Shown: positions 7,349-35,239 of the stretch, piece by piece
Layout: each line of letters begins with the position of its first letter
Position numbering within the stretch: position 1 is the first letter of the stretch
Source: an uncultured Cytophagales bacterium
GTDB taxonomy: Bacteria > Bacteroidota > Bacteroidia > Cytophagales > Cyclobacteriaceae
Assembly: GCA_913057175.1 (NCBI GenBank)
Contig: CAJXNP010000001.1
Location: forward strand, 434,001-498,000
Direction of reading: 5' to 3'
DNA length: 64,000 nt
The notes under the pieces: generated by a model
Told to the model about the DNA's origin: nothing
What the model saw: only the letters and a program-made list of their open reading frames with translations
Databases searched by the model: none
Made by a program: the position numbers and the translations under genes

Positions 7349-10300
7349 ATGACATCAGGTTTTAGTTCTTTTTGGAATATTAAAATCACAACCTGGCTAA
7401 TCTTTTTGATCGCATTTTTAAATCTTTCAAACGCATTTGCCCAGGATCCTTTCATTCCCAAATACGATGCGGTTAAAAGATCAGAGAGATGTTTTACCAT
7501 CACTTATGATCAGGGTAACCAGTTTGGAGCTGTTTGGTTCAGGGATAAAGGGGACTTTAGTCAGGACACCGCTCTTTATTTTGTAATGTACTTTGGGCAT
7601 AAGAATAGTGACGGAGCAGATGGATTTGCCTTTGTGATGCACAATGACCCTCGCGATATAAATGTTGATCCGTCTCAAACGGTCGACATCGGCGGCGGTG
7701 GCAACTTTGATTTAGAAGCCGCAACTGGTGATGATGGTGGAGGCTTGGGATATGCCTTACATAATTCAAGGGTAAACAATAATACCATCGATGGGCCACA
7801 TCCTGATGGATCGGGTACAACCTGGAGGGACAACCACAGAATTTGGCCATCAGTTGCTATAGAATTTGACACATATTATAATGGTGATGTACAGGATGGA
7901 GCCAATAATTCTGGTGCCCCACCAGCAAGCCCATATAGTGGACAAGATCATACTTCTGTTGTCTATGATGGGGACCTGTATAATCAACAGCAAGAGATTT
8001 GGGGATACGATCAAAATGGCAATCTCTTCCAAAATCGTTTGCAACCAATTCTTCCAATTGAAGGTTGGGGATGGAACAAAGATGCGGAAGACAATAATTG
8101 CTATGCATTTAAAATTAACTGGATTGTAAATAATGACGGAACGCAAACATTAGAACTTTGGGCGGATAATTATGATCCGGACATCCTGGATGCAGAGGAT
8201 TATAACTACTACCAGGTAATGACTCATACCGATGACATGATCAATGGTGTTTTTGATGGTATCACTGATTTAAGGTTTGGTTTTACCGGTTCAACCGGCG
8301 GGCTGAATAACGAACAAACAATTTGTTTGTTAGGTGGTAACTCACGACCAACAGCACTCGATGATTTTGCATCAACGCCTGTTAATACCCCTGTAACTGT
8401 TGATGTTGAATCAAATGACAATGACTTTGATGGTGACAACTTATTTGTTCCGACCATTGTCCAGCAGGCAGATAACGGTTTTGCGGAGGTAATTTCGGTT
8501 GGTGATGACAATTTTATTCGATACACCCCTAATACAAATTTTGTTGGAACCGACACTATTCGATACAGAACGTGCGATGTGGATTCAGATAAATGTTATG
8601 CACTTTGTGATGAGGCAAATGTTATCATCACTGTAGGATGTGAAACTATTGAAATTGGTGCCAATCCACTAACACCTTATGCCCTTTGCGATCCAAATTT
8701 GACACCAAATGGGTCAGCTGAAGCTTTCTTTGTTTCCGGAACTATTGTTGGAAATGTTTGGGTAGAAACTTTTGCGGGTTTAAATGGGAATACAGCAGAT
8801 ACCGGAACAACGGCATGGGCATTTACTACTGATGGAACCTGTAATAATAGTGGTGACGATATCGATGTTGATAATGAACGCTTCAGAGCGGAAAACACCG
8901 GTTGCGAAGTAATATGGGAAACGGAAGATATTGACATCTCAACCGTTACTGATGTTGGAATTTCGATTTTCCTGGAGGCGGCAGGCGACATGGAATCAAG
9001 TGATTTCCTTGAAGTATATTATATCCTTGATGGTGGTGCAGAAACCCCTCTCACAAATGGAAGCTTCACAGACAATTTTGGTTCCTCTACTGCGACAGCC
9101 TCAGCTATAAACGGCAACTCTTTAAGGATAAAGATTTACGCTCAGAACTCTGCAAGTGGCGAGAGATATTCCTGGGACGATATTTACGTGACAGGAACAG
9201 GCGCAGGGGCGCCTCCAAGCCTGACGTACAACTGGTTTGAAGGTTCTGTTTTACCAGCAAATTCAATCGGAACAGGAGCTGTTCAATCGGGTTTGAGAGA
9301 TACTACCTACTATGTTTTTGCTACCAATCCATCCACAGGCTGTAATTCAGATACCGTTTCGGTAACGATTAGCAGCCAACCGGAGGTTGTTGATAGTATC
9401 TATACATTACAAACATCACCATTTACCACCTGCTTGCCTCCTTACGATGGATCCCTGGCAGCAGGAGTAATTGTAGATGGAGATTCAATCACATCCGGAT
9501 ATACTTTTGAATGGAGATATCTGACAGATCCCGGAGCAGCTCCTATTCGTGTTGGAGCCAATGCTACTAATCTGGAAGCATCGGAGTACATCGTTACAGC
9601 CATTAACCAGGCAACAGGTTGTTTTGCGACCAAAACTGACTCTGTTACCAATGAAGTTCGAACTCCGGAGGTCTTTCCATCAGTTATCAATGATGTTTAT
9701 TCCTGCGTTGCTGTTAATGGTTCTGTTACCGCTACCGCACAAAAAGAAGGCATTCCTTTGAATTCAGGAGTTGGGTATTTTTGGTATAATGGATTGATTG
9801 CGGATATTACTACTCCGGCAGATTACGTCGGACAGACCATTATTGACTTAGCTCCGGGTAACTACTCTGTTATTGTGATTGATAGTTCGACCATGTGTAC
9901 GTCGGAATCGCAAAACGTGAATGTCGCTGATCTCAGGCAGTTACCGCAGCCGATCATTACAAATGCCACAGATCAAATATCCTGCGACCCGAGCAATCCA
10001 ACCGGTTCATTCACTTCTGCTGTGGACAACTTATCGGGTGGAACGATGACCAGCGGATTTACTTTTAACTGGTACAGAGGGTTGAACGACGTGACACCTG
10101 CCAGACCTGGTTATACAGGCGGACCAAATGTTGATCAATTACCGGAAGATATTTACCGGTTGATCGTAGTGAATGATACTTCTGGTTGTGAGGCGATACT
10201 GGATACAGCAATTGTTGAAAATCTCGTCACTCCGACCATTGATACTGCTGTTACTACCCCTGTGAATATTTGCGGACCAAATCCAAATGGAACCATTACG

Positions 10301-13300
10301 GTAACTCCAAACGGAAACGTTGCCGATTTCGACTATCGTTTGTATGCCGGCAATGGTGTGGTTCCTGCCAATCTGATCACAGAGACCAGCTCGAATTTCT
10401 TTGATATGCTGGATATCGGAACATATACAGTTACCATTGTTGATGCTATCACAAATTGCGAAAGTCTGGGCCGGGTAGTGAATATTACGGACATGACTGT
10501 TATCCCGTTAGCGGATTTTGAAGTATTTCCACAGTATGCATGTACTCCTGCTCCACCAACAGGTCGGATTGAAGCGACCGTTACAGTAGGCTCACCTGCG
10601 GATTATACATTCGAATGGTTTGTGAATGATACTTCCGGAGCACCTGTTACTTCGACAAGAGGTGTCAACGGTGAGATCCTGGATACGCTTGCGGTAGGAA
10701 CTTATGCTTTATTGTTGACAAACAATTCTACCAATTGCCAGAATGTTTATTTCCAGAATATCGGGCAAAGCATCACCCTTCCTGTAGTAGATACAGCTTA
10801 TTCGGCGCCATCAACTTTCTGTGGCCCGAATGGCAATGGAGAATTACATGCAGCCGCAGATGCCGGTTCAACTGATCCATCTATTTTCACCTTTAACTGG
10901 ACAGATCTGGGAAGCGGATCGGTTATTTCAACATTAGCTGATGTGAATAACTTAGTGCCGGGCGACTACGAATTGGTAATTGTGAATGATACAACACAAT
11001 GTAGGTCTAATCCATATCCTGTGACGGTAGATGATGAATCCATCACCCCGGATGCCATCATTGCAGCAACGGATAACTCGTCATGTGATGTTAACAATCC
11101 AAATGGACAATTAGAGGTATCAAATGTAACGAACGAAGGCGTTTATGATCCTACCAACTATTCCTTCGAATGGTATGTCGGAAATTCAAGTGGAACCCAG
11201 TTGGTTACTCCGAATGTGTCATTCCCTAATACACCCGATAGTTCCCTGGTATTTGGATTAGCAGAGGAAACATACGCACTGGTTATCACCAACAATACTA
11301 CCAATTGTAGCAATGAGGTATTAGCGCAAATCATTGACACGAACATTAAACCTGTGTTGGATTATCCAACCATTATAGATGCGGTACGATGTACGGACCC
11401 ATATATGAGTGGTGTGGAGATTACCACAGTAAACGGTGGGCAACCAATCCCAGCCGGATATAGCTTCGAACTGGAAAATATCGGAACAGGTGATATTTAT
11501 TCTAATACAACCGGGATTTTTGAAGATTTGACAAATGCAGATGGTATCATTTTACCTCCCGGAGATTATCGTATCATCGCATTAAACTCATTCAATTGCG
11601 CATCTGACACTATTGAATTTGCAATTGACGATGATTCAACAGATCCGGTGTTTGATTTAACATCATACAACAACTCTTCCTGTGACATGACGCTGCCAAA
11701 TGGTATTGTTGTGGCATCAACGGATGGAAGTTATGGAGTCAATCAGATTGAATGGTTTATCACCAATACAAGCGGAAGCCCGGTTGTACCAACTATCCCA
11801 ACAGCTGCAATAGTCCGGGATGATTCTGTTGCCACGGGACTTTCAGGCAATACATACGCAGTTAGGCTGACTGATGAGAATGGATGTGCAAGCACAGAAT
11901 TTGCTTCAGTCTTAGATATACCTGGAAACGATCCAATCATTGATTCACTTTATGCCGAAAATCTGACTTCATGTGTGATTGATGATGGGTTGATCGGTTT
12001 GGGTGTATCACCGCTTGAACAACTTCCTCCGGATTTAATTGATAACAGAACCTATACTTTCACCATTGACAATTCAGGAACTATATTCTCAAGGTCAACT
12101 AACCCGGTTACACATCCTGATACGGTGAATTTTGTCGGTTTGGCTGATGGAGATTGGATAGCAACCGTGACGGATGATTTTACACATTGTACATCTGATC
12201 CGATAACAGTTACACTTGAAACAGCTCCTGAGATATTCTTTAATGTGAATGTCACTCCAATCGTAAGTTGCGGTGATGTAGATGGTTCTATTGAATTGGA
12301 AGCTGAGAGTCCCGGGTTCAATGAAAGACCTGGAGGTGACGGTTTTACATTTGAGTGGCATGATGGTAATTTAATTTCTGACCCTATATTATCAACAGTG
12401 ACAATCGACGACGATTGGCAAACTACGGCGAATTCCCTGGAATCGAAGTTCTATACTGTCAGGGTAACCGACAATTTTTCACTATGCTCGAAAGACACAA
12501 GCATTTTTGTGCAATCATTCAGTGTACCACTATTGCAAGGCTTAACATCAACTGATGCAACCAATTGTTCACCTAGTAATGGAAGCGCAAGTGTTGACGT
12601 AGATCCATTTTCATTCCCCGTTGGGAATAGTTACAGTGACTATGATTTCAAAATATATGAAGGCCTCTCATTTGATGCGTCAGATACTCCTTACAGAGTT
12701 ATTGAGAATCCAGTTAGTGGTCCGGTCAATTTTGCTGCCGACTTGGAGTTAGGAACCTATATCGTTGTGGCCCAGGAAGATTTTGTAGGAAGTGGTGGAT
12801 GTTATACTGATCCATTACCTTTTACCATTGGCTTAGATTTTGACTTAGAGCTTAATCCTTTTGTAGTCGTAAGTGATAGTTCATGCACAGGCGGAATAGC
12901 TACAGGAGAGCTAGATGCTTCATTTAACGATTTTACCTACAACGTTACGCAAGTGGACTACGCCTGGTATCAAGGCAACGGAACCACAGTGCCGGAAGAA
13001 GATCCTTTAAATGGCGATCCTGCAACGATCTCTGGAAAAAATGCTGGAACGTTTACGGTTGAGTTAACAGTAACCGGTGGTGATGGATTGGGATGTGTTT
13101 ATTCAGAGCCAATTAACCTTCCAAAAATTCAACCTGCTATGGCAATCAATGCCTCATTAGTTGATAATTTAAACTGTATAGGTCACAATGGAGAGGTTTC
13201 ATTGGTGGATATCAGCATTGATGGTTCAAACTTCAATTTGAATAATTTCGAAAATTTTGTCATAGATGATGAAAATGGCAACGAGATAAGTGTTGTTCCA

Positions 13301-16300
13301 AATACAGCGACAAATTGGTTGAATCTTTCACCTGGTGATTACTTTTTATCTGCTCGAAAAATTACAACACAGTGTTATACAGCCATAAGAAAGGTCACCA
13401 TCGATGATGATTCTCAAACGCCTATATTAAACATCACAATGGATTCACCTGATTTTAGCTGTAATGACATAAGCCCAACCGGGCAGCTTACCGCTATTGC
13501 GACTCCGGTTCCTGGTGGTGCATACACCTGGCAATGGACTAATTCATTAGGTGGACTGGTGGCAAGTACGGATACTCCACCAAATACATCTGTTGTATCC
13601 AACATCCAGGATGACAAATACACGGTTATTGTTACGGATAATGATGGTGATGGCATCAATGATGGTTGTTCAACAACTCGTGACTTTACACTAACACAAG
13701 GAAGCATTTCGATTGTTACACCTTTAGTTTCGCATACCGATCAGACGATCTGTGATGAAAATGCTTCTATCACAGTTGATGAAATTCGGGAAATAAGAAA
13801 TGGTACCATATTCTATACTGAATCCCCTCCTCCACTACCTGGAACTGGCTATTTTGATTTAATAGCAGAATTATACGACCAAAACTTAACAGCAATCAAT
13901 ACGGGTACAAACCCATGGGCAGCATTTCAATCGGTAGACGGTAGATTTGGTCCAACCAATGAAATACCTGTCGGAACGTATTATGTGAAATCAAGAAACA
14001 TAAGTACCGGATGTAATTTTGGACCTCCTACCCAGGTGATTGTTAAGAATGTAAGCAAAAAACCGACCATCAATATCACAATGGACAGCCCTGATTACTC
14101 TTGCAGTGACATGGCTACTCCGACCGGTGAACTTTCCGCAATTGTCTATGGTGGAAGTGATCTGGATGCTTTACAAACAAACTTTACATTCGAATGGACG
14201 GATGACTTAGGTAATCCTATAGTAGGGACTACAAATATTACTACCCTGAGTGAAGGTATATATAACCTAAAAGTAACTGATAATACCAGCCTTGATGAAT
14301 TCTGTGAAAGAACTGTTTCATTCGAAGTCACCCATGAACTACAGGAAATCATTATCGTTGATGCGGATGGAACAGATAACACTTGGTGTGAGCCCGGAAA
14401 CGGACAATTCTGGGTCAATGGACTACTGGTAAATGGAACCCTAATAGACCATATATCAGATCCCGTTGCTTTTTCAAATTATTCAGTAGATATGTTTGTT
14501 GGGAATTTAAGCACACCATTAGGACCAATGTATAATACAGGTTTATATGATGATCCTATTGATAGTCTGCATGAAAATACCCTCTATGCAATAGCCAAAA
14601 ACAATATCACTTTATGTGAATCTTATCCGAGACAGGTTATTGTTAATGATCGTTCAGAAGATCCATTGATCAGTATGACCAAGCTTTCAGATAACTACAG
14701 CTTGAATTATGACAATATCAATTCACTGACTGGTGAATTGGAAGCTGAATCTTTTGAAGCTGATGGAATGGGTAAAAGCCCTCTTGGATACTCGTATAAA
14801 TGGTATCGAAATGAAATTGTTGGAGATAGTTTATTTGCAGAAGCGAATGCAACCAATGCCGTCCAAACCCATGAATACCTTAGAGATGCCCAATATTTTG
14901 TTGAGGTTACAGATAGCCTTACCGGTTGTGTATCAACAGCTGCATTGAACCTGCCATTTGTCTATCTGAAACCGAAGTTTAATCCGGTTCCGGTAGCGCA
15001 AACACACTGTGATCCACCAAATGGAAGCATCAACATACCATCGATTTATAAAGTTTCTGATTCGACTGAAACCTTTACAAAATATGAATTCGACTGGCAT
15101 TCGGGAACATACAACCCTGGCAACCCATTCTTCCAGGAATACGGAGGAAACGGTGGCAATGCCGTCAATGGATTGACTGCGGGTAAATACTATGTTCATG
15201 CTTTGGATACCTTCTGGATGGTACAATCCGATCCGGTTCAGGTAGAAGTGGAAGACAGCACGGTTTATCCAATGATAGCCTATAATGGGTCTCTTTCTGA
15301 TGATCAGACGAGCTGTAATCCAAATGATCCGAATGGTGCGCTTGGTGTCAATGTGCCAGGATTTGACCCTTACAGTTACTCATGGTATGAAGGGCAAACA
15401 GCATCCGGAACGCCGATTGGCAGTACCAACCAGATAATTCAACAAAATGCAGGGTTTTATACCATTTTGGTAACCAATCAAACAACTGGTTGCCAGTCTT
15501 TGAGAACGTTCGAAATCCGGGACAACATGAAAATACCTGTTGTTGCAGCCAGCATGTCTCCGGTCACCAATTGTTTACCGGATCTGGCCAATGGTATTGC
15601 GACAGCAACCATCACCAATATCATCAATAGTAACTATGACTTTTACTGGTATGAAGGCATGTCTGAAAGCGGCACACCGGTTTACACCGATCTGGCAGGA
15701 GCTTTTGATTCCGAAAAAATAAACTCTGCTTATTACGACATTCCGGGTGGTTTCTACACCGTAGTGGCAAGGGATACATTTGATTGTCGATCGGATGCCG
15801 TTACCATTGAAGTTTTGGAAGACCTTACCTATCCGAAAATTGCGGTAAATGAACTGTCTCCATTGACTTACTGTGATCCTGACAGGCCAAATGCGGTCAT
15901 GTCCGCTACAGCGAATGGGCAGGTGGCCGGATATACATTCAACTGGAACATCAAAAATGGTCCGCTCTATACTTCCGGTCCGATCGTCAACAATCTGAAT
16001 GATCAACTATATACATTGGTAGTCATTAATAATACCACAGGATGTCGGTCATTCCGAGATGTTCAGCCAACTGTCGCCTACGTAAATGTTCCGGAACCTA
16101 TAGTTGATGTGTTGGATGAAATGTCGAGTTGTATTTCTCCTAATGGTCGTGCTACCAGTACCATACTCGGGCAACTGGAGGATTACTCATTCCACTATTT
16201 ACACCCGAATGGGTTCAATCCTATGACGGATAATATCAATGGAACAACCATTTCCGAGCTTGATATCAACGACTACTTTGTCTATGCCAAAGACCGAACT

Positions 16301-16873
16301 TCAGGATGTATTTCTGATACGGTAATGTTTGTGATCAATGATACAAGGTATGTGCCGGATTATGACATCATCACAGAACCTTCGATTTGTAATGAAGCTA
16401 CGGGAGAGGCTGAGGTGATCATCGGTGACCTGACCAGGCCATTTGAAGTCAGGTGGTATGACGATTATGAATCCTATGGAACAGGTCGATCTATCAATTA
16501 CAAACCAGCAGGACAATATTATGTAGCAGTTGAAGGAACAGAGGGATGTATTGATAGCACAACGACCTTTATTGGAACGGATATCATCATTTACAATGCT
16601 GTTTCAAATAACTACGATGGATTGAACGAAGCATTCTACATAGAATGTATTGACATATTCCCTGACAACAATGTGAAGATATTTAACAGAGCAGGTGAAT
16701 TGGTTTATGAAATAAATGATTACGACAGTGAAGACCCGGATAGAAGCTTTACAGGTTTCTCTAACAGGGGACCTATAAACGGTAATCAGCTTGCAATTGG
16801 TACTTATTACTATGTTGTGGACTTACAGGATGGGACCAAACCACGTGTAGGGTTCCTGGAATTAAAACGCTAA
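7349..16873 (+). CDS. giant secreted lectin/repeat protein with type B T9SS C-terminal domain
   Basis: A 3174-residue surface protein. Signal peptide about 1-32 (ending NLSNAFAQ). Residues about 33-325 resemble an L-type (legume-like) lectin: DGADGFAFVMHNDP, VAIEFDTYYNGD and LRFGFTGSTGG are typical carbohydrate-binding beta-sandwich segments. Residues about 330-430 are a cadherin/Ig-like module (PTALDDFASTPVNTPVTVDV, then NFVGTDTIRYRT). After this I count about 26 units of roughly 90-110 residues, each opening with Cys-x-x-x-(P)NG text such as CGPNPNGTI or CDVNNPNGQL and closing with a second Cys after a Y-x-V/L-x-V strand. The C-terminus (VKIFNRAGELVYEI, then GTYYYVVDLQ and GFLELKR) is a CHU_C domain in which the usual FTPNGDG is replaced by NAVSNNYDG. 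More than 20 D-S/T-A/I/L/V/M/T triplets, the Bacteroidota O-glycosylation motif, are present. The gene is followed after 4 bp by its likely PorP/SprF partner. Confidence 0.9.
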   Translation: MTSGFSSFWNIKITTWLIFLIAFLNLSNAFAQDPFIPKYDAVKRSERCFTITYDQGNQFGAVWFRDKGDFSQDTALYFVMYFGHKNSDGADGFAFVMHNDPRDINVDPSQTVDIGGGGNFDLEAATGDDGGGLGYALHNSRVNNNTIDGPHPDGSGTTWRDNHRIWPSVAIEFDTYYNGDVQDGANNSGAPPASPYSGQDHTSVVYDGDLYNQQQEIWGYDQNGNLFQNRLQPILPIEGWGWNKDAEDNNCYAFKINWIVNNDGTQTLELWADNYDPDILDAEDYNYYQVMTHTDDMINGVFDGITDLRFGFTGSTGGLNNEQTICLLGGNSRPTALDDFASTPVNTPVTVDVESNDNDFDGDNLFVPTIVQQADNGFAEVISVGDDNFIRYTPNTNFVGTDTIRYRTCDVDSDKCYALCDEANVIITVGCETIEIGANPLTPYALCDPNLTPNGSAEAFFVSGTIVGNVWVETFAGLNGNTADTGTTAWAFTTDGTCNNSGDDIDVDNERFRAENTGCEVIWETEDIDISTVTDVGISIFLEAAGDMESSDFLEVYYILDGGAETPLTNGSFTDNFGSSTATASAINGNSLRIKIYAQNSASGERYSWDDIYVTGTGAGAPPSLTYNWFEGSVLPANSIGTGAVQSGLRDTTYYVFATNPSTGCNSDTVSVTISSQPEVVDSIYTLQTSPFTTCLPPYDGSLAAGVIVDGDSITSGYTFEWRYLTDPGAAPIRVGANATNLEASEYIVTAINQATGCFATKTDSVTNEVRTPEVFPSVINDVYSCVAVNGSVTATAQKEGIPLNSGVGYFWYNGLIADITTPADYVGQTIIDLAPGNYSVIVIDSSTMCTSESQNVNVADLRQLPQPIITNATDQISCDPSNPTGSFTSAVDNLSGGTMTSGFTFNWYRGLNDVTPARPGYTGGPNVDQLPEDIYRLIVVNDTSGCEAILDTAIVENLVTPTIDTAVTTPVNICGPNPNGTITVTPNGNVADFDYRLYAGNGVVPANLITETSSNFFDMLDIGTYTVTIVDAITNCESLGRVVNITDMTVIPLADFEVFPQYACTPAPPTGRIEATVTVGSPADYTFEWFVNDTSGAPVTSTRGVNGEILDTLAVGTYALLLTNNSTNCQNVYFQNIGQSITLPVVDTAYSAPSTFCGPNGNGELHAAADAGSTDPSIFTFNWTDLGSGSVISTLADVNNLVPGDYELVIVNDTTQCRSNPYPVTVDDESITPDAIIAATDNSSCDVNNPNGQLEVSNVTNEGVYDPTNYSFEWYVGNSSGTQLVTPNVSFPNTPDSSLVFGLAEETYALVITNNTTNCSNEVLAQIIDTNIKPVLDYPTIIDAVRCTDPYMSGVEITTVNGGQPIPAGYSFELENIGTGDIYSNTTGIFEDLTNADGIILPPGDYRIIALNSFNCASDTIEFAIDDDSTDPVFDLTSYNNSSCDMTLPNGIVVASTDGSYGVNQIEWFITNTSGSPVVPTIPTAAIVRDDSVATGLSGNTYAVRLTDENGCASTEFASVLDIPGNDPIIDSLYAENLTSCVIDDGLIGLGVSPLEQLPPDLIDNRTYTFTIDNSGTIFSRSTNPVTHPDTVNFVGLADGDWIATVTDDFTHCTSDPITVTLETAPEIFFNVNVTPIVSCGDVDGSIELEAESPGFNERPGGDGFTFEWHDGNLISDPILSTVTIDDDWQTTANSLESKFYTVRVTDNFSLCSKDTSIFVQSFSVPLLQGLTSTDATNCSPSNGSASVDVDPFSFPVGNSYSDYDFKIYEGLSFDASDTPYRVIENPVSGPVNFAADLELGTYIVVAQEDFVGSGGCYTDPLPFTIGLDFDLELNPFVVVSDSSCTGGIATGELDASFNDFTYNVTQVDYAWYQGNGTTVPEEDPLNGDPATISGKNAGTFTVELTVTGGDGLGCVYSEPINLPKIQPAMAINASLVDNLNCIGHNGEVSLVDISIDGSNFNLNNFENFVIDDENGNEISVVPNTATNWLNLSPGDYFLSARKITTQCYTAIRKVTIDDDSQTPILNITMDSPDFSCNDISPTGQLTAIATPVPGGAYTWQWTNSLGGLVASTDTPPNTSVVSNIQDDKYTVIVTDNDGDGINDGCSTTRDFTLTQGSISIVTPLVSHTDQTICDENASITVDEIREIRNGTIFYTESPPPLPGTGYFDLIAELYDQNLTAINTGTNPWAAFQSVDGRFGPTNEIPVGTYYVKSRNISTGCNFGPPTQVIVKNVSKKPTINITMDSPDYSCSDMATPTGELSAIVYGGSDLDALQTNFTFEWTDDLGNPIVGTTNITTLSEGIYNLKVTDNTSLDEFCERTVSFEVTHELQEIIIVDADGTDNTWCEPGNGQFWVNGLLVNGTLIDHISDPVAFSNYSVDMFVGNLSTPLGPMYNTGLYDDPIDSLHENTLYAIAKNNITLCESYPRQVIVNDRSEDPLISMTKLSDNYSLNYDNINSLTGELEAESFEADGMGKSPLGYSYKWYRNEIVGDSLFAEANATNAVQTHEYLRDAQYFVEVTDSLTGCVSTAALNLPFVYLKPKFNPVPVAQTHCDPPNGSINIPSIYKVSDSTETFTKYEFDWHSGTYNPGNPFFQEYGGNGGNAVNGLTAGKYYVHALDTFWMVQSDPVQVEVEDSTVYPMIAYNGSLSDDQTSCNPNDPNGALGVNVPGFDPYSYSWYEGQTASGTPIGSTNQIIQQNAGFYTILVTNQTTGCQSLRTFEIRDNMKIPVVAASMSPVTNCLPDLANGIATATITNIINSNYDFYWYEGMSESGTPVYTDLAGAFDSEKINSAYYDIPGGFYTVVARDTFDCRSDAVTIEVLEDLTYPKIAVNELSPLTYCDPDRPNAVMSATANGQVAGYTFNWNIKNGPLYTSGPIVNNLNDQLYTLVVINNTTGCRSFRDVQPTVAYVNVPEPIVDVLDEMSSCISPNGRATSTILGQLEDYSFHYLHPNGFNPMTDNINGTTISELDINDYFVYAKDRTSGCISDTVMFVINDTRYVPDYDIITEPSICNEATGEAEVIIGDLTRPFEVRWYDDYESYGTGRSINYKPAGQYYVAVEGTEGCIDSTTTFIGTDIIIYNAVSNNYDGLNEAFYIECIDIFPDNNVKIFNRAGELVYEINDYDSEDPDRSFTGFSNRGPINGNQLAIGTYYYVVDLQDGTKPRVGFLELKR

Positions 16874-16877
16874 GAAA

Positions 16878-17813
16878 TTGAAAAGACTAATTAAACTCAT
16901 CCTGATAATGGTTGCTTTTTTGGGCCTGGCAGAAGTCATGGCTCAGCAAAGACCTGTCATTTCTCAATATATGTTGAATGGACTGGTGTTAAACCCAGCC
17001 TATGCGGGAAGGCATGAATATTCGTCTTTCTCTGTCATGTATCGTGACCAATGGGTAAATGTACCCGGAGCTCCAAAATTGGCAGTTGCAAGTGCTCAAA
17101 CAGGTTTTAAGGGAAAGAAAATCGGAGTTGGCTTATTATTGGCCAATGATGCTCTTGGAATGCACGATAACCAAAGCGTGTATGCCAGCTATGCCTACAA
17201 TCTTGAGTTAATCAATGGTGGTAAGATATCAATGGGTGTTCAGGCAGGTTTTGACCGATTAAGGGAAGATCCTAATGTATTGAATATCCGGGACGACGGT
17301 GACAGTCAATTTGCGGGAGTGAACGTCAGGTACCTTCCCAATTTTGGAACAGGCGTTTTTTATCATGATGACTATAATTATCTGGGTGTATCCGTTCCTT
17401 ACATATTATCAAACAGAGATGTACAAAACGAAGAATTCACTGAGATCTACAAAATGCCCAGGTATTATTATGTAACCGCTGGAAGACTAATCGAAGCTGG
17501 ACCTCGACTGATCATTAAACCGTCCATGCTTCTAAGAATCCAGGAGCAAAATCCATTTGCATTTGATGCGAACATCAATTTCTACATTGATGATATTATT
17601 GGTTTAGGAGCTTCTTATAGATTTGGTGATAGTGTGATCGGGATATTCGAATTCCAGATCAACCAATTCATTAAATTCAGCTATGCTTACGACTATGTAT
17701 TTTCCAATTTAACCCAGTTCACCAAAGGTACACATGAACTGATGCTGAATTATCGTATCAATTTCTCAGCACCGAGAAAACATAGAATGTGTCCTGGTCC
17801 TTTGTACTTTTAA
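16878..17813 (+). CDS. PorP/SprF family T9SS outer-membrane protein
   Basis: A 311-residue protein of the standard PorP/SprF length. The signal peptide (MKRLIKLILIMVAFLGLAEVMAQ) needs the TTG at 16878 as start; the first in-frame ATG lies inside the hydrophobic segment and would destroy it. Family features are QQRPVISQYMLNGLVLNPAYAG, then RDQWVNVPGAPKLAVASAQT, then beta-barrel strands to TKGTHELMLNYRINF. In Flavobacterium johnsoniae the gene after sprB, sprF, is needed to export the giant adhesin SprB. By analogy this protein probably serves the 3174-residue cargo directly upstream. Only 4 bp separate the two genes, so translational coupling is plausible and would fit the weak TTG start. Confidence 0.92.
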   Translation: MKRLIKLILIMVAFLGLAEVMAQQRPVISQYMLNGLVLNPAYAGRHEYSSFSVMYRDQWVNVPGAPKLAVASAQTGFKGKKIGVGLLLANDALGMHDNQSVYASYAYNLELINGGKISMGVQAGFDRLREDPNVLNIRDDGDSQFAGVNVRYLPNFGTGVFYHDDYNYLGVSVPYILSNRDVQNEEFTEIYKMPRYYYVTAGRLIEAGPRLIIKPSMLLRIQEQNPFAFDANINFYIDDIIGLGASYRFGDSVIGIFEFQINQFIKFSYAYDYVFSNLTQFTKGTHELMLNYRINFSAPRKHRMCPGPLYF

Positions 17814-17816
17814 TAT

Positions 17817-18164
17817 TTATTCGTTTACACCGGCAATTGCCAGGAAGATAGAATTGACGAGAGAAAGAACAAGGCTGAATAAAAACGCCCACAAAAATCC
17901 ATCAACGTGGAAACTATCAATTAAATAGGCCGCCAGAAGTATGATCACCGTATTAATCACCAATAGAAATAATCCCAGCGTGATTACCGTGAGTGGAATG
18001 GTCAAAAAGACCAGGATTGGCTTTAATGTAGCATTTAATAAAGTAAGAAGTGCGGCAACGATCAACGCTCCAACAATATCGTCGACATTTACTCCGGGAA
18101 GCAGGTATGCCGTGAGCAAAACTGCCATTGCATAAATAATCAATCTTAATAAAAACTTTACCAT
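17817..18164 (-). CDS. phage holin-like four-TM membrane protein (YvlD family)
   Basis: A 115-residue, almost wholly hydrophobic protein with four predicted membrane helices. It matches the 4-TM holin-like family (phage_holin_4_2, YvlD), with the signature NATLKPILVFLTIPLTVITLGLF near the middle. Despite the family name these are normally chromosomal genes of unknown function, and there is no phage gene near. The gene converges with the PorP/SprF gene; the two stops are 3 bp apart. Confidence 0.85.
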   Translation of the reverse strand: MVKFLLRLIIYAMAVLLTAYLLPGVNVDDIVGALIVAALLTLLNATLKPILVFLTIPLTVITLGLFLLVINTVIILLAAYLIDSFHVDGFLWAFLFSLVLSLVNSIFLAIAGVNE

Positions 18165-18288
18165 GGGTTTAGTCAGTTAGTTATTGAATTTGGTTCTAAG
18201 TAAAATCCTGTGTGTAAACTTTCTCAAACGGTGAACAGGTTCCTTCACAAAGCCTCATCGAGGGTCCCAACCCCTGATGCTCTGGAAT

Positions 18289-18357
18289 AAACCTCGTAGA
18301 GGTTTTAATTATTGTAACAAGATCTCTCGCCCTAAAATCGAATCCTTGTAGAGGATT
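18289..18357. repeat. two REP-like hairpins 3' of the transposase gene
   Basis: Hairpin 1: aaacctc (18289-18295), loop gta, gaggttt (18299-18305), a perfect 7-bp stem. Hairpin 2: aatcctt (18341-18347), loop gta, gaggatt (18351-18357), with one G-T pair. A weaker relative, cctc-atc-gagg, lies at 18253-18263. All share the core TCGTAGA or TTGTAGA, the complement of the TCTACGA core found on the other side of the gene. Confidence 0.7.
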
Positions 18358-18359
18358 TA

Positions 18360-18863
18360 TTATGACCCGGACTTTAAATAAAGATCGTCGAAAAATTCAA
18401 ATAAAAATCTTTCGTCATATTCTATTGAGAATTTTTTCAACAGTGCCATATACTCTTCTTTGAAACTTCTCGTCTTATGATGTTGTTCCTGGTTGTGAAT
18501 ATAATTATATACATTGTCCAATTGTGACCGGCTGCAAGAAAATGCCCCATATCCGTCCTGCCAATGAAATTTCCCGTTGAGCCAACCTTTACTATTTATA
18601 AATGTGGATGATTCCTTCTTAATACACCCAACCAAATCCGATATTTTATCATTCGGATTTGCTCCAAATAATATATGTATATGATCGGACATACCATTTA
18701 TAATGATTGATTTATGTCTCCGGTTTGATATGATCCCGCTTATATATTTGAAGACTTCACTTCTGATTTCTTTTTTTAATAATCTTTCTCGGTACTTTAC
18801 CGCAAACACCAAATGGATATATAATTGGGTGAACACACCTGGTTTCATGATACTTCTCACCAT
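18360..18863 (-). CDS. REP-associated tyrosine transposase (IS200-like Y1 family)
   Basis: A 167-residue intact member of the Y1/HUH transposase family (RAYT type). The HUH metal-binding motif is H61-I-H63 in SDHIHILFG, and the catalytic Tyr is Y121 in NVYNYIHNQEQHH. Family landmarks FTQLYIHLVFAVKYR, FHWQDGYGAFSCS and FKEEYMALLKKFSIEYDERFLFE are all present, so the enzyme looks complete. An alternative ATG at 18848 (MKPGVFTQLYIH) would fit homologues slightly better. Such enzymes nick and move short palindromic REP sequences as single strands. The gene is bracketed by four short hairpins with a shared core, probable substrates. Confidence 0.93.
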   Translation of the reverse strand: MVRSIMKPGVFTQLYIHLVFAVKYRERLLKKEIRSEVFKYISGIISNRRHKSIIINGMSDHIHILFGANPNDKISDLVGCIKKESSTFINSKGWLNGKFHWQDGYGAFSCSRSQLDNVYNYIHNQEQHHKTRSFKEEYMALLKKFSIEYDERFLFEFFDDLYLKSGS

Positions 18864-18868
18864 TTATT

Positions 18869-18937
18869 GATCCTCTACGAGGATCGATCATTGATTGTGA
18901 ATATTTTTCTACAATAATAAAACATCTACGATGTTTT
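18869..18937. repeat. two REP-like hairpins 5' of the transposase gene
   Basis: Hairpin 3: gatcctc (18869-18875), loop tac, gaggatc (18879-18885), a perfect 7-bp stem immediately before the start codon of the transposase. Hairpin 4: aaaacatc (18919-18926), loop tac, gatgtttt (18930-18937), a perfect 8-bp stem. Both have the TAC loop, while the pair on the other side of the gene has GTA, so the two sets are in inverted orientation. Stem sequences differ between copies but the CTACGA core is kept. Confidence 0.7.
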
Positions 18938-19109
18938 CCCAATTTTGAAATTTTGGCATTTATGGTGTAGCCAAGGCTGTACCATATACCACTAATTCTG
19001 AATCCACACAAAATCACATAAAAACTTGATCTCCTCAAAAATCAATTTAATTAAAGTTTTTATCAATCAAATTCATTCAGTTTAAAAATAAAATTCTAGT
19101 TTCGCCAAA

Positions 19110-20084
19110 ATGAAAATATTCGATGTTATCATAATTGGCGCAGGTCCATGTGGACTCGCTTGCGGAATAGAAGCACAAAAGGAAAATCTGGACTACCTCA
19201 TCATTGATAAGGGTAATATTACCGAATCTGTCAGAAGATATCCGGTTAATATGGTTTTCTTCTCTACTTCAGAAAACATTGAAATCGGTGAAGTGCCATT
19301 CGTTTCAATGGGTATGAGACCCAACCGGACCGAAGCATTAAAATATTACAGAAAAGTTGTCGATCATTTTGATTTGCATCTACAGCTATTCACACTGGTT
19401 GATAATGTCACAAAAGAAAAGGACAATTTTGTGCTAACGACCAACAAGGGAACATGGAAAGCCAAAAAGCTCATTCTCGCCACGGGATATTATGATGTGC
19501 CAAAGTATCTGAAAATTCCCGGAGAAAACCTTCCGCATGTTAGCCACTATTATGATGAAGCATTCAAATACACCAAAACAAAGGCTGTCGTGGTCGGAGG
19601 TGCAAATTCAGCCATTGAGACAGCGCTTGATCTTTACCGGAATGGTGCGGAGGTTACCATCATCCACATCTATGATGGCCTGGACAGAAGAGCAAAGTAC
19701 TGGATCGTCCCCGATCTGGAAAACAGGATCAAAAAAAATGAAGTGAAGGCATACTTCAACACCGCTGTAAAGGAAATTGAAGAGGGCAAAATCACGATTG
19801 AAAATTTGCGCTCGAAAGAAACAAAAGAAATTGAAGCGGATTTTGTATTCCTTATGACCGGATACCGGCCTGATTCAGAATTCCTTCAAAAAATCGGTAT
19901 CGAACTGCAGGGAGAAAACCTCATTCCCAAACTCAACACAGAAACTTTTGAGTCAAACATCCCAGGGATCTACCTGGCTGGAAGCCTCATCGGAGGAGAA
20001 GAAACAGCAAAAGTATTTATCGAAAACGGACGGCTGCATGGAAAGCCCATTATTCAGGATATTCTTGCGAAGGTGAGAAGGTAG
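19110..20084 (+). CDS. ypdA: YpdA-family FAD/NAD(P)-dependent disulfide reductase
   Basis: A 324-residue two-dinucleotide-domain flavoprotein. The N-terminal FAD site is VIIIGAGPCGLACGIEA (residues 6-22); the NADPH site is AVVVGGANSAIETALDL (about residues 159-175); a second FAD motif GIYLAGSLIGGEE lies near the C-terminus. It resembles thioredoxin reductase but has no CxxC redox pair in the NADPH domain. That is the hallmark of YpdA/Bdr, the proposed bacillithiol-disulfide reductase. It is likely cytosolic and acts in low-molecular-weight thiol recycling; the substrate is inferred from the family. Eight bases after the stop a 7-bp repeat array begins. Confidence 0.85.
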   Translation: MKIFDVIIIGAGPCGLACGIEAQKENLDYLIIDKGNITESVRRYPVNMVFFSTSENIEIGEVPFVSMGMRPNRTEALKYYRKVVDHFDLHLQLFTLVDNVTKEKDNFVLTTNKGTWKAKKLILATGYYDVPKYLKIPGENLPHVSHYYDEAFKYTKTKAVVVGGANSAIETALDLYRNGAEVTIIHIYDGLDRRAKYWIVPDLENRIKKNEVKAYFNTAVKEIEEGKITIENLRSKETKEIEADFVFLMTGYRPDSEFLQKIGIELQGENLIPKLNTETFESNIPGIYLAGSLIGGEETAKVFIENGRLHGKPIIQDILAKVRR

Positions 20085-34766: not shown

Positions 34767-34785
34767 GAAATCAACTAATATCAGG

Positions 34786-35239
34786 TTAATCCCAAACATA
34801 CCGGACATCATAATCTATTTTGTATTTTTTTAAGAACAGAAGATACTCCTGTTGAAATGTCCTGTTTTTGTGATGTTCTTCCTGTTCAATTATATATTTT
34901 TTTACAACCTCCTGTTTCCGTTGAATTTACTGAAAAAGCACCATACCCACTTTGCCAGTAAAAATCTGCATACTTTTTGTCTTTAGTTTTGATCCATTTT
35001 GAAGAATGTGATTTAGTCTCTTCCAACAATTTCATCAAGGCGATTTTTCTTGATAAAAGACAAAGAATATGGATATGATCAACATGACCTCCTATGATGA
35101 CAGGGCTGCATTCCAGTCTTTTGCAAATTCCTCCAATATAGGTGTATAACTCATTTTCAATTTCCAAGTCAATGAATGGTTGCCTGTTTTTGGTACTATA
35201 GATGATATGAACATAATTTTTAACTAACGACTGTGGCAT
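34786..35239 (-). pseudogene. frameshifted REP-associated tyrosine transposase (Y1 family)
   Basis: The start at 35239 (MPQSLVKNYVHIIYSTKNRQ) gives a RAYT with intact HUH motif (VDHIHILCL) and FYWQSGYGAFSVNSTE, but the frame then stops at 34886. Shifting one base at about 34908-34912 restores VVKKYIIEQEEHHKNR and then FLKKYKIDYDVRYVWD, with a natural stop at 34786-34788. The catalytic Tyr (KKYIIEQ) is therefore only in the second frame, so the gene is inactive as it stands. A single-base insertion explains this. The protein otherwise looks well conserved, so the break is probably recent, or a sequencing error. Confidence 0.88.

Follow-up and report, generated by a model that had tools for sequence, protein, structure and literature searches.

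The window, a stretch of 64,000 nucleotides from an uncultured Cytophagales bacterium, carries an intact gene for a Y1 (HuH) transposase, which is placed in the gap between two neighbour genes and surrounded by four hairpins with 3-nt loops, two per side and inverted about the gene. The features of the locus are as follows:

17817-18164, minus strand: Phage_holin_4_2-family gene, one neighbour of the transposase
18289-18305, minus strand: 3' outer hairpin, AAACCTC-TAC-GAGGTTT in the minus-strand reading, aligned with the right ends of relatives
18314-18317, minus strand: TTAC, the YTAY motif of the 3' outer hairpin (putative cleavage site), from alignment with relatives
18341-18357, minus strand: 3' inner hairpin, AATCCTC-TAC-AAGGATT, with one G.T pair, from the hairpin scan and alignment with relatives
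18360-18863, minus strand: intact open reading frame of the Y1 (HuH) transposase, 167 aa
18866-18888, plus strand: 5' inner hairpin, ATTGATCCTC-TAC-GAGGATCGAT, from the hairpin scan and alignment with relatives
18909-18912, plus strand: CTAC, the YTAY motif of the 5' outer hairpin (putative cleavage site), from alignment with relatives
18919-18937, plus strand: 5' outer hairpin, AAAACATC-TAC-GATGTTTT, from the hairpin scan and alignment with relatives
19110-20084, plus strand: pyridine nucleotide-disulphide oxidoreductase gene, the other neighbour of the transposase

Translation probably starts at the internal ATG at 18846-18848, giving a form of 162 aa, since the homolog L083 begins MKPGVFTQIY and the window protein MVRSIMKPGVFTQLY. 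Elsewhere in the window, 7349-16873 (plus strand) encodes a repetitive, secreted-looking protein of 3174 aa and is followed by an open reading frame at 16878-17813 (plus strand), which we take to resemble PorP/SprF-type outer membrane proteins. A second Y1 homolog, at 34783-35236 (minus strand), is broken, reads as two pieces and belongs to another branch (MPQSLVKNYVHIIYSTKNRQ); it is flanked by inverted GCCCCAAAGGGGC / GCCCCTTTGGGGC palindromes and a AGCGTAGGGCAACGCCCTACGTT hairpin.

The window transposase matched the Pfam model Y1_Tnp (E = 3.8e-28), and its best named family was the NCBIfam IS200 model (76.6 bits, cut-off 55). The HuH motif and catalytic tyrosine within a Y1_Tnp fold place it in the Y1 (HuH) transposase superfamily, and the catalytic residues H61, H63 and Y121, together with Q125, were invariant across 23 aligned sequences. 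An AF2 model built on an alignment of 22 homologs (pLDDT 87.5, compared with 48 for a model made without the alignment) matches the fold of ISDra2 and IS608 TnpA and also fits the complexes of these enzymes with hairpins. All 30 structures that matched the model at E ≤ 0.001 were Y1 transposases, mostly ISDra2 and IS608 TnpA, and the RAYT-REP complex ranked 30th of the 30.

The initial annotation had called the protein a RAYT (TnpA_REP), an identity that we reject: the NCBIfam model REP_Tyr_transpos scored 28.3 bits against a cut-off of 80, and the Y motif is Y---Q--HH (YIHNQ), whereas that of RAYT class 2 is Y---NP. The hairpins spoke against the label as well, as GT[AG]G at the 5' foot was absent from base counts around the inner and outer hairpins. 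The motifs DHIH, WQ and YIHNQEQHH fit the DH[IV]H, WQ and Y---Q--HH of TnpA_Y1 subclass 1.2, and on these motifs we file the protein there. Quentin et al. 2018 (PMC6006769) set this subclass apart from the IS-like subclass 1.1; in the sections of that first characterization available to us, a table has "no" for subclass 1.2 where other subclasses have structures, and the text describes its members as "generally without typical terminal IS200 secondary structure features." This published trait, a lack of associated hairpins, does not hold for the window protein and its homologs. We keep the protein in subclass 1.2 because the absence of hairpins in the paper is descriptive rather than defining.

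Read on the strand that runs from the gene to the outside, each side has an inner hairpin, a spacer, YTAY and an outer hairpin, with the loop TAC in all four; on the plus strand, the loops read GTA at 18289-18305 and 18341-18357 and TAC at 18866-18888 and 18919-18937. In coordinate order the stems are 7, 7, 10 and 8 bp long, with one G.T pair in two of them, and the loops within each pair lie 52 and 51 nt apart. This is the inverted set of two GTA-loop and two TAC-loop hairpins that the initial annotation had described, and dinucleotide shuffles of 18230-18960 gave at least four such hairpins in 2 of 2000 cases, none of the 2000 having four with a single class of loop. Two details had to be corrected: positions 18253-18288, with which the feature had been made to begin, hold no hairpin of this class, and the hairpin said to adjoin the start codon directly would lie about 17-20 nt upstream of it if translation begins, as is probable, at the ATG at 18846-18848. 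Three of the four hairpins have the core CTACGA/TCGTAG, described as constant, in exact form; in the remaining one (18341-18357) it is TTGTAG and includes a G.T pair. Loop and stem top are constant, as had been noted, but the differing stems are not arbitrary: in relatives they are position-specific (ATCCTC in the inner hairpins of both sides, ACATC in the 5' outer and RACCTC in the 3' outer hairpin), which weakens the suggestion that the enzyme recognises the loop and stem top alone. When the window ends were aligned with those of relatives, the hairpins and a YTAC motif were kept and the spacer drifted; the outer hairpin was lost in one of the six aligned left ends, that of L083. Across 400 kb elsewhere on the same contig, there was no further hairpin with a TCTACGA core and a stem of at least 6 bp. 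An Rfam element as the identity of the hairpins was rejected, as a scan of ten loci with these hairpins gave no match at the gathering score.

We looked for the same layout at 80 named homolog loci, picked by protein match alone, which come mostly from Bacteroidota and also include Ignavibacteria, Balneolia, Chloroflexi-labelled MAGs and Desulfonema magnum. By one detection rule, tandem hairpins about 50 nt apart were present on at least one side in 65 of the 80, and a single locus had no hairpin on either side; tandem pairs on both sides were found in only 25 of the 80, which we count against a REPtron-like reading. In unselected flanks, pairs 44-60 nt apart occurred in 89 of 158 gene-proximal 230-nt stretches, compared with 15 of 1151 distal stretches taken from the same loci and 10 of 1580 shuffles. 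Loops of the TAC/TTC type outnumbered GTA/GAA loops by 158 to 29 near the gene and by 37 to 29 far away, so that the inversion about the gene is general among homologs. An earlier set of 53 homolog loci had matched inverted palindromes (at least 14 identities) in 16 loci, compared with 4.3% of 2756 cross-locus pairings. We also placed loop class (TAC, TTC or 4-nt) on a tree of 70 transposases, namely those from both sets whose outer hairpin lay at distance 17-19 and whose loop could be classed clearly. The tree required 17 changes, whereas shuffling gave a mean of 33.5 and none of 200 shuffles came down to 17. Loop type thus tracks the phylogeny of the transposases, although it can still differ between near relatives. 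A longer inverted repeat beyond the outer hairpins was rejected as a general terminus, with only 9 of 130 loci above the 99th percentile of the cross-locus control; in many of the loci listed in that test, the shared repeat consisted of the outer hairpin and the YTAY that precedes it.

One script found a 5' hairpin in 43 of the 80 homologs; it ended 8-91 nt before the ATG, and in 25 of these 43 the distance was 8-22 nt. This position would suit hairpins that are RNA control or terminator structures and not transposition substrates, with the inner 5' hairpin dampening translation, and IS200 is reported to use such a stem-loop for control (PMC3196728). As an account of all the hairpins we regard this as very improbable, because it leaves the inverted outer pair, YTAY, the gene-free dispersal and the arrays (described below) without explanation. 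RNA control may be a second role.

The outer hairpins are preceded at a fixed distance by YTA[TC]AA and the inner ones are not (57 of 266 flanks with the strict pair), and the two central positions of this motif are T in 93% and A in 93%. A looser search of all flanks, again unselected, found YTAY plus hairpin in 146 of 266, with 87 of the 146 at distance 18 from the loop; the wrong-strand control gave 79 of 266, with 21 of the 79 at distance 18 and a less sharp spacing, and we weigh this wrong-strand yield against a REPtron-like reading. The window's two outer hairpins fit the pattern with CTAC and TTAC. IS608 serves as an analogy for cleavage at such a motif, and by this analogy, together with that of the CT cleavage sites of TnpA_REP, YTAY is a candidate cleavage site. 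The CT sites are described in PMC8266576. Pairing of a guide tetranucleotide with YTAY was not apparent, by reading, in the base counts around the strict-pair hairpins.

Whole genomes were searched with two models. R1 is a model of the window's own class; R2 is an outer-hairpin model with rows chosen for perfect stems and TA in the motif (44 rows, of which 41 were used together with two window rows), so that base pairing in its alignment (A4) is not independent evidence. The E-values of both are rough, and the hairpin counts, which include gene-flanking copies, are minimum values, with 51 to 150 candidates scored in each genome. In the host genome, R2 gave at least 15 matches at E ≤ 1: two are the window's, three adjoin the paralog L002, two adjoin a decayed transposase copy and the remaining eight lie elsewhere, on four contigs. 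Twelve of the 15 overlap no open frame of at least 90 aa. The initial annotation had named a lack of further hairpins in the genome as grounds against it; in the exact class, R1 recovered nothing beyond the four copies already known when 150 of 1134 candidates were scored, the best of the others reaching 20.7 bits, while the clear dispersed gene-free units of the host belong to the TTC class of L002, a sister to the window class.

Among the 20 genomes of named homologs, R2 matches (E ≤ 0.001) were present in 13, with top counts of at least 45, 32, 30, 27, 23 and 21, and in some genomes gene-free hairpin units outnumber the genes. In 20 stretches taken from four relatives, the solo twin-hairpin units of G008 had a common sequence that began shortly before the inner hairpin and ended shortly after the outer one. 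The window class itself was amplified in G154 (transposase 74% identical), where R1 gave at least 29 matches at E ≤ 1 in the form of an array of ~215-bp repeats on contig C11 and isolated gene-free units on C1; G059 (L083, about 77% identical) has a gene-free unit of this class on another contig. The initial proposal of an intact Y1 transposase with a cognate hairpin set is borne out by the recurrence of the architecture in homologs and by these exact-class copies in G059 and G154. For the exact window class, relatives thus show the REPtron architecture, inverted cognate palindromes plus gene-free copies, and the host genome does not. Outside Bacteroidota, G075 (Desulfonema magnum) has runs of R2-type hairpins with a 50-nt period beside a transposase (C1:3075228-3078232).

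We consider it probable that the locus is a REPtron-like element, in which a subclass 1.2 HuH/Y1 transposase is accompanied by its own cognate twin-hairpin ends in the order outer'-inner'-gene-inner-outer. This reading builds on the observed architecture, orientation rule, YTAY motif, agreement of loop type with the tree and gene-free dispersal in relatives. The transposase would bind the tandem hairpins on single-stranded DNA, cleavage would take place at or near YTAY, ~18 nt before the outer loop, and twin-hairpin units would be moved by the enzyme; such movement would produce the gene-free copies and arrays of the relatives.

A classical IS200/IS605 insertion sequence, with subterminal hairpins as its left and right ends, would agree with IS200 as the best named family, with ISDra2 and IS608 TnpA as the nearest solved structures, and with the several gene copies of G032, which have 88-94% identity. 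In IS200/IS605 elements, however, the hairpins of the two ends are used on a single strand and in one orientation, and the window gene has a pair of hairpins on either side in mirror-image arrangement. The excess of gene-free units over genes in some genomes also argues against such an element, as does the separation of subclass 1.2 from the IS-like subclass 1.1 by Quentin et al. (PMC6006769), and we find it distinctly unlikely.

In the isolated units of the window class (G059 C4 and, twice, G154 C1), the right end adjoins the left end, giving the order inner-outer-outer'-inner'; over all classes, both this and the reverse order occur among the gene-free units listed. It is conceivable, though we are doubtful, that subclass 1.2 performs a distinct Y1 transposition whose unit is the twin hairpin, with the cleavage site between the hairpins and gene-free units arranged as in a circle junction. 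If so, these units would arise from, or feed into, a circular intermediate and would not be internal deletions of the element. In the 3' flank of L083, the right end of the gene is followed by another left end, which includes the beginning of the gene leader, and the arrangement resembles a tandem copy of the element that has been cut short.

For the REPtron-like reading we also compared genomes with and without the gene. Across 148 genomes from the phylum, R2 matches (E ≤ 0.001) were found in 14 of the 67 that carry the gene and in 3 of the 81 that lack it (Fisher test, p = 0.0014), and among the 59 nearer genomes, host included, in 8 of 33 and 0 of 26 (p = 0.007); hairpins in genomes lacking the transposase, the other finding that was to speak against the initial proposal, are thus rarer yet not absent. 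Counting against the REPtron-like reading, 53 of the 67 gene-bearing genomes gave no R2 match; R2 is biased towards TTC loops, and scoring was limited to 51 candidates per genome. G082, G137 and G152 have R2 hairpins and no transposase match at E ≤ 1e-10; these hairpins may be orphan repeats. The transposase gene is present in G105, a congener of G137 and G152.

The three gene copies of G032 lie in different places, the match of the decayed second copy near L002 begins at the outer hairpin, and the closest homologs of the window transposase (about 76% and 74%) are outside the host's class, within the phylum, with 59% the best in 36 other same-family genomes. We take these as signs of past movement; a direction of transfer and present activity are putative. 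A further inverted repeat (TTRRGTTGACGSCTATG...) encloses the element in the G032 gene copies (flanks of L006, L055 and L056) and is also found around the G059 gene-free unit (L210, L223), as though a single separate palindromic repeat had been the insertion target of both. Similar genes in L095, L096, L100 and L109 were rejected as proof of transfer, because the neighbourhoods are partly common to these loci and MAG mis-binning is possible. The Chryseobacterium copies have flanks 84-91% identical over kilobases, conserved neighbourhoods that are a sign of stability, so not all copies are mobile. These flanks, together with the confinement of the window class to the gene in the host genome, favour a domesticated, immobile transposase with a host role and hairpins as relics. 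The position of the closest homologs in other classes and the amplification of the window class in G154 point the other way, and domestication appears unlikely to us.

The hairpin architecture is real, non-random and family-wide; it is REPtron-like in its apparent working and not that of a RAYT. As described in PMC6006769 and PMC8266576, REPtrons (TnpA_REP/RAYT plus REP, class 2) likewise have inverted palindromes on either side of a HuH/Y1 gene, gene-free copies that are dispersed, clusters as well as inverted pairs, and an enzyme and palindrome that co-vary, whereas the window system has YTAY ~9 nt before the outer stem in place of GTAG at the hairpin foot, twin hairpins per end, and Y---Q--HH instead of Y---NP. 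With the IS200/IS605 TnpA enzymes (IS608, ISDra2; subclass 1.1) it shares the fold, HuH plus Tyr, Gln at Tyr+4 and a hairpin beside a tetranucleotide, and it differs in its inverted doubled ends, gene-free repeats, Y---Q--HH and subclass 1.2 C-terminal extension. Subclass 1.2, in PMC6006769, agrees in DH[IV]H, WQ, Y---Q--HH, a length of about 150 aa, low copy number and occurrence in Bacteroidota, and is described there without the associated hairpins that are common in the homologs here. TIRYT/TIRtrons and REPINs (PMC3733652, PMC3116915) are alike in inverted palindromic ends and miniature derivatives and unlike in sequence, twin-hairpin layout and transposase subclass.

We found no description of these hairpins in the open-access full-text literature, most subscription papers and ISfinder being outside this scope; RayT genes in Chryseobacterium are mentioned in PMC11194056, whose RayT passages do not treat hairpins. 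As far as open-access full text shows, no REPtron-like system has been published for subclass 1.2, which was reported to be without one. When this subclass was separated in 2018, it was described as lacking IS properties and, in general, associated structures, so that it had no known substrate; the hairpins described here are candidate substrates with a defined layout and a motif testable as a cleavage site. The TAC, TTC and 4-nt loop classes provide natural enzyme-hairpin pairs usable for swap experiments, and the finding draws attention to short palindromic repeat families of Bacteroidota and of some further phyla.
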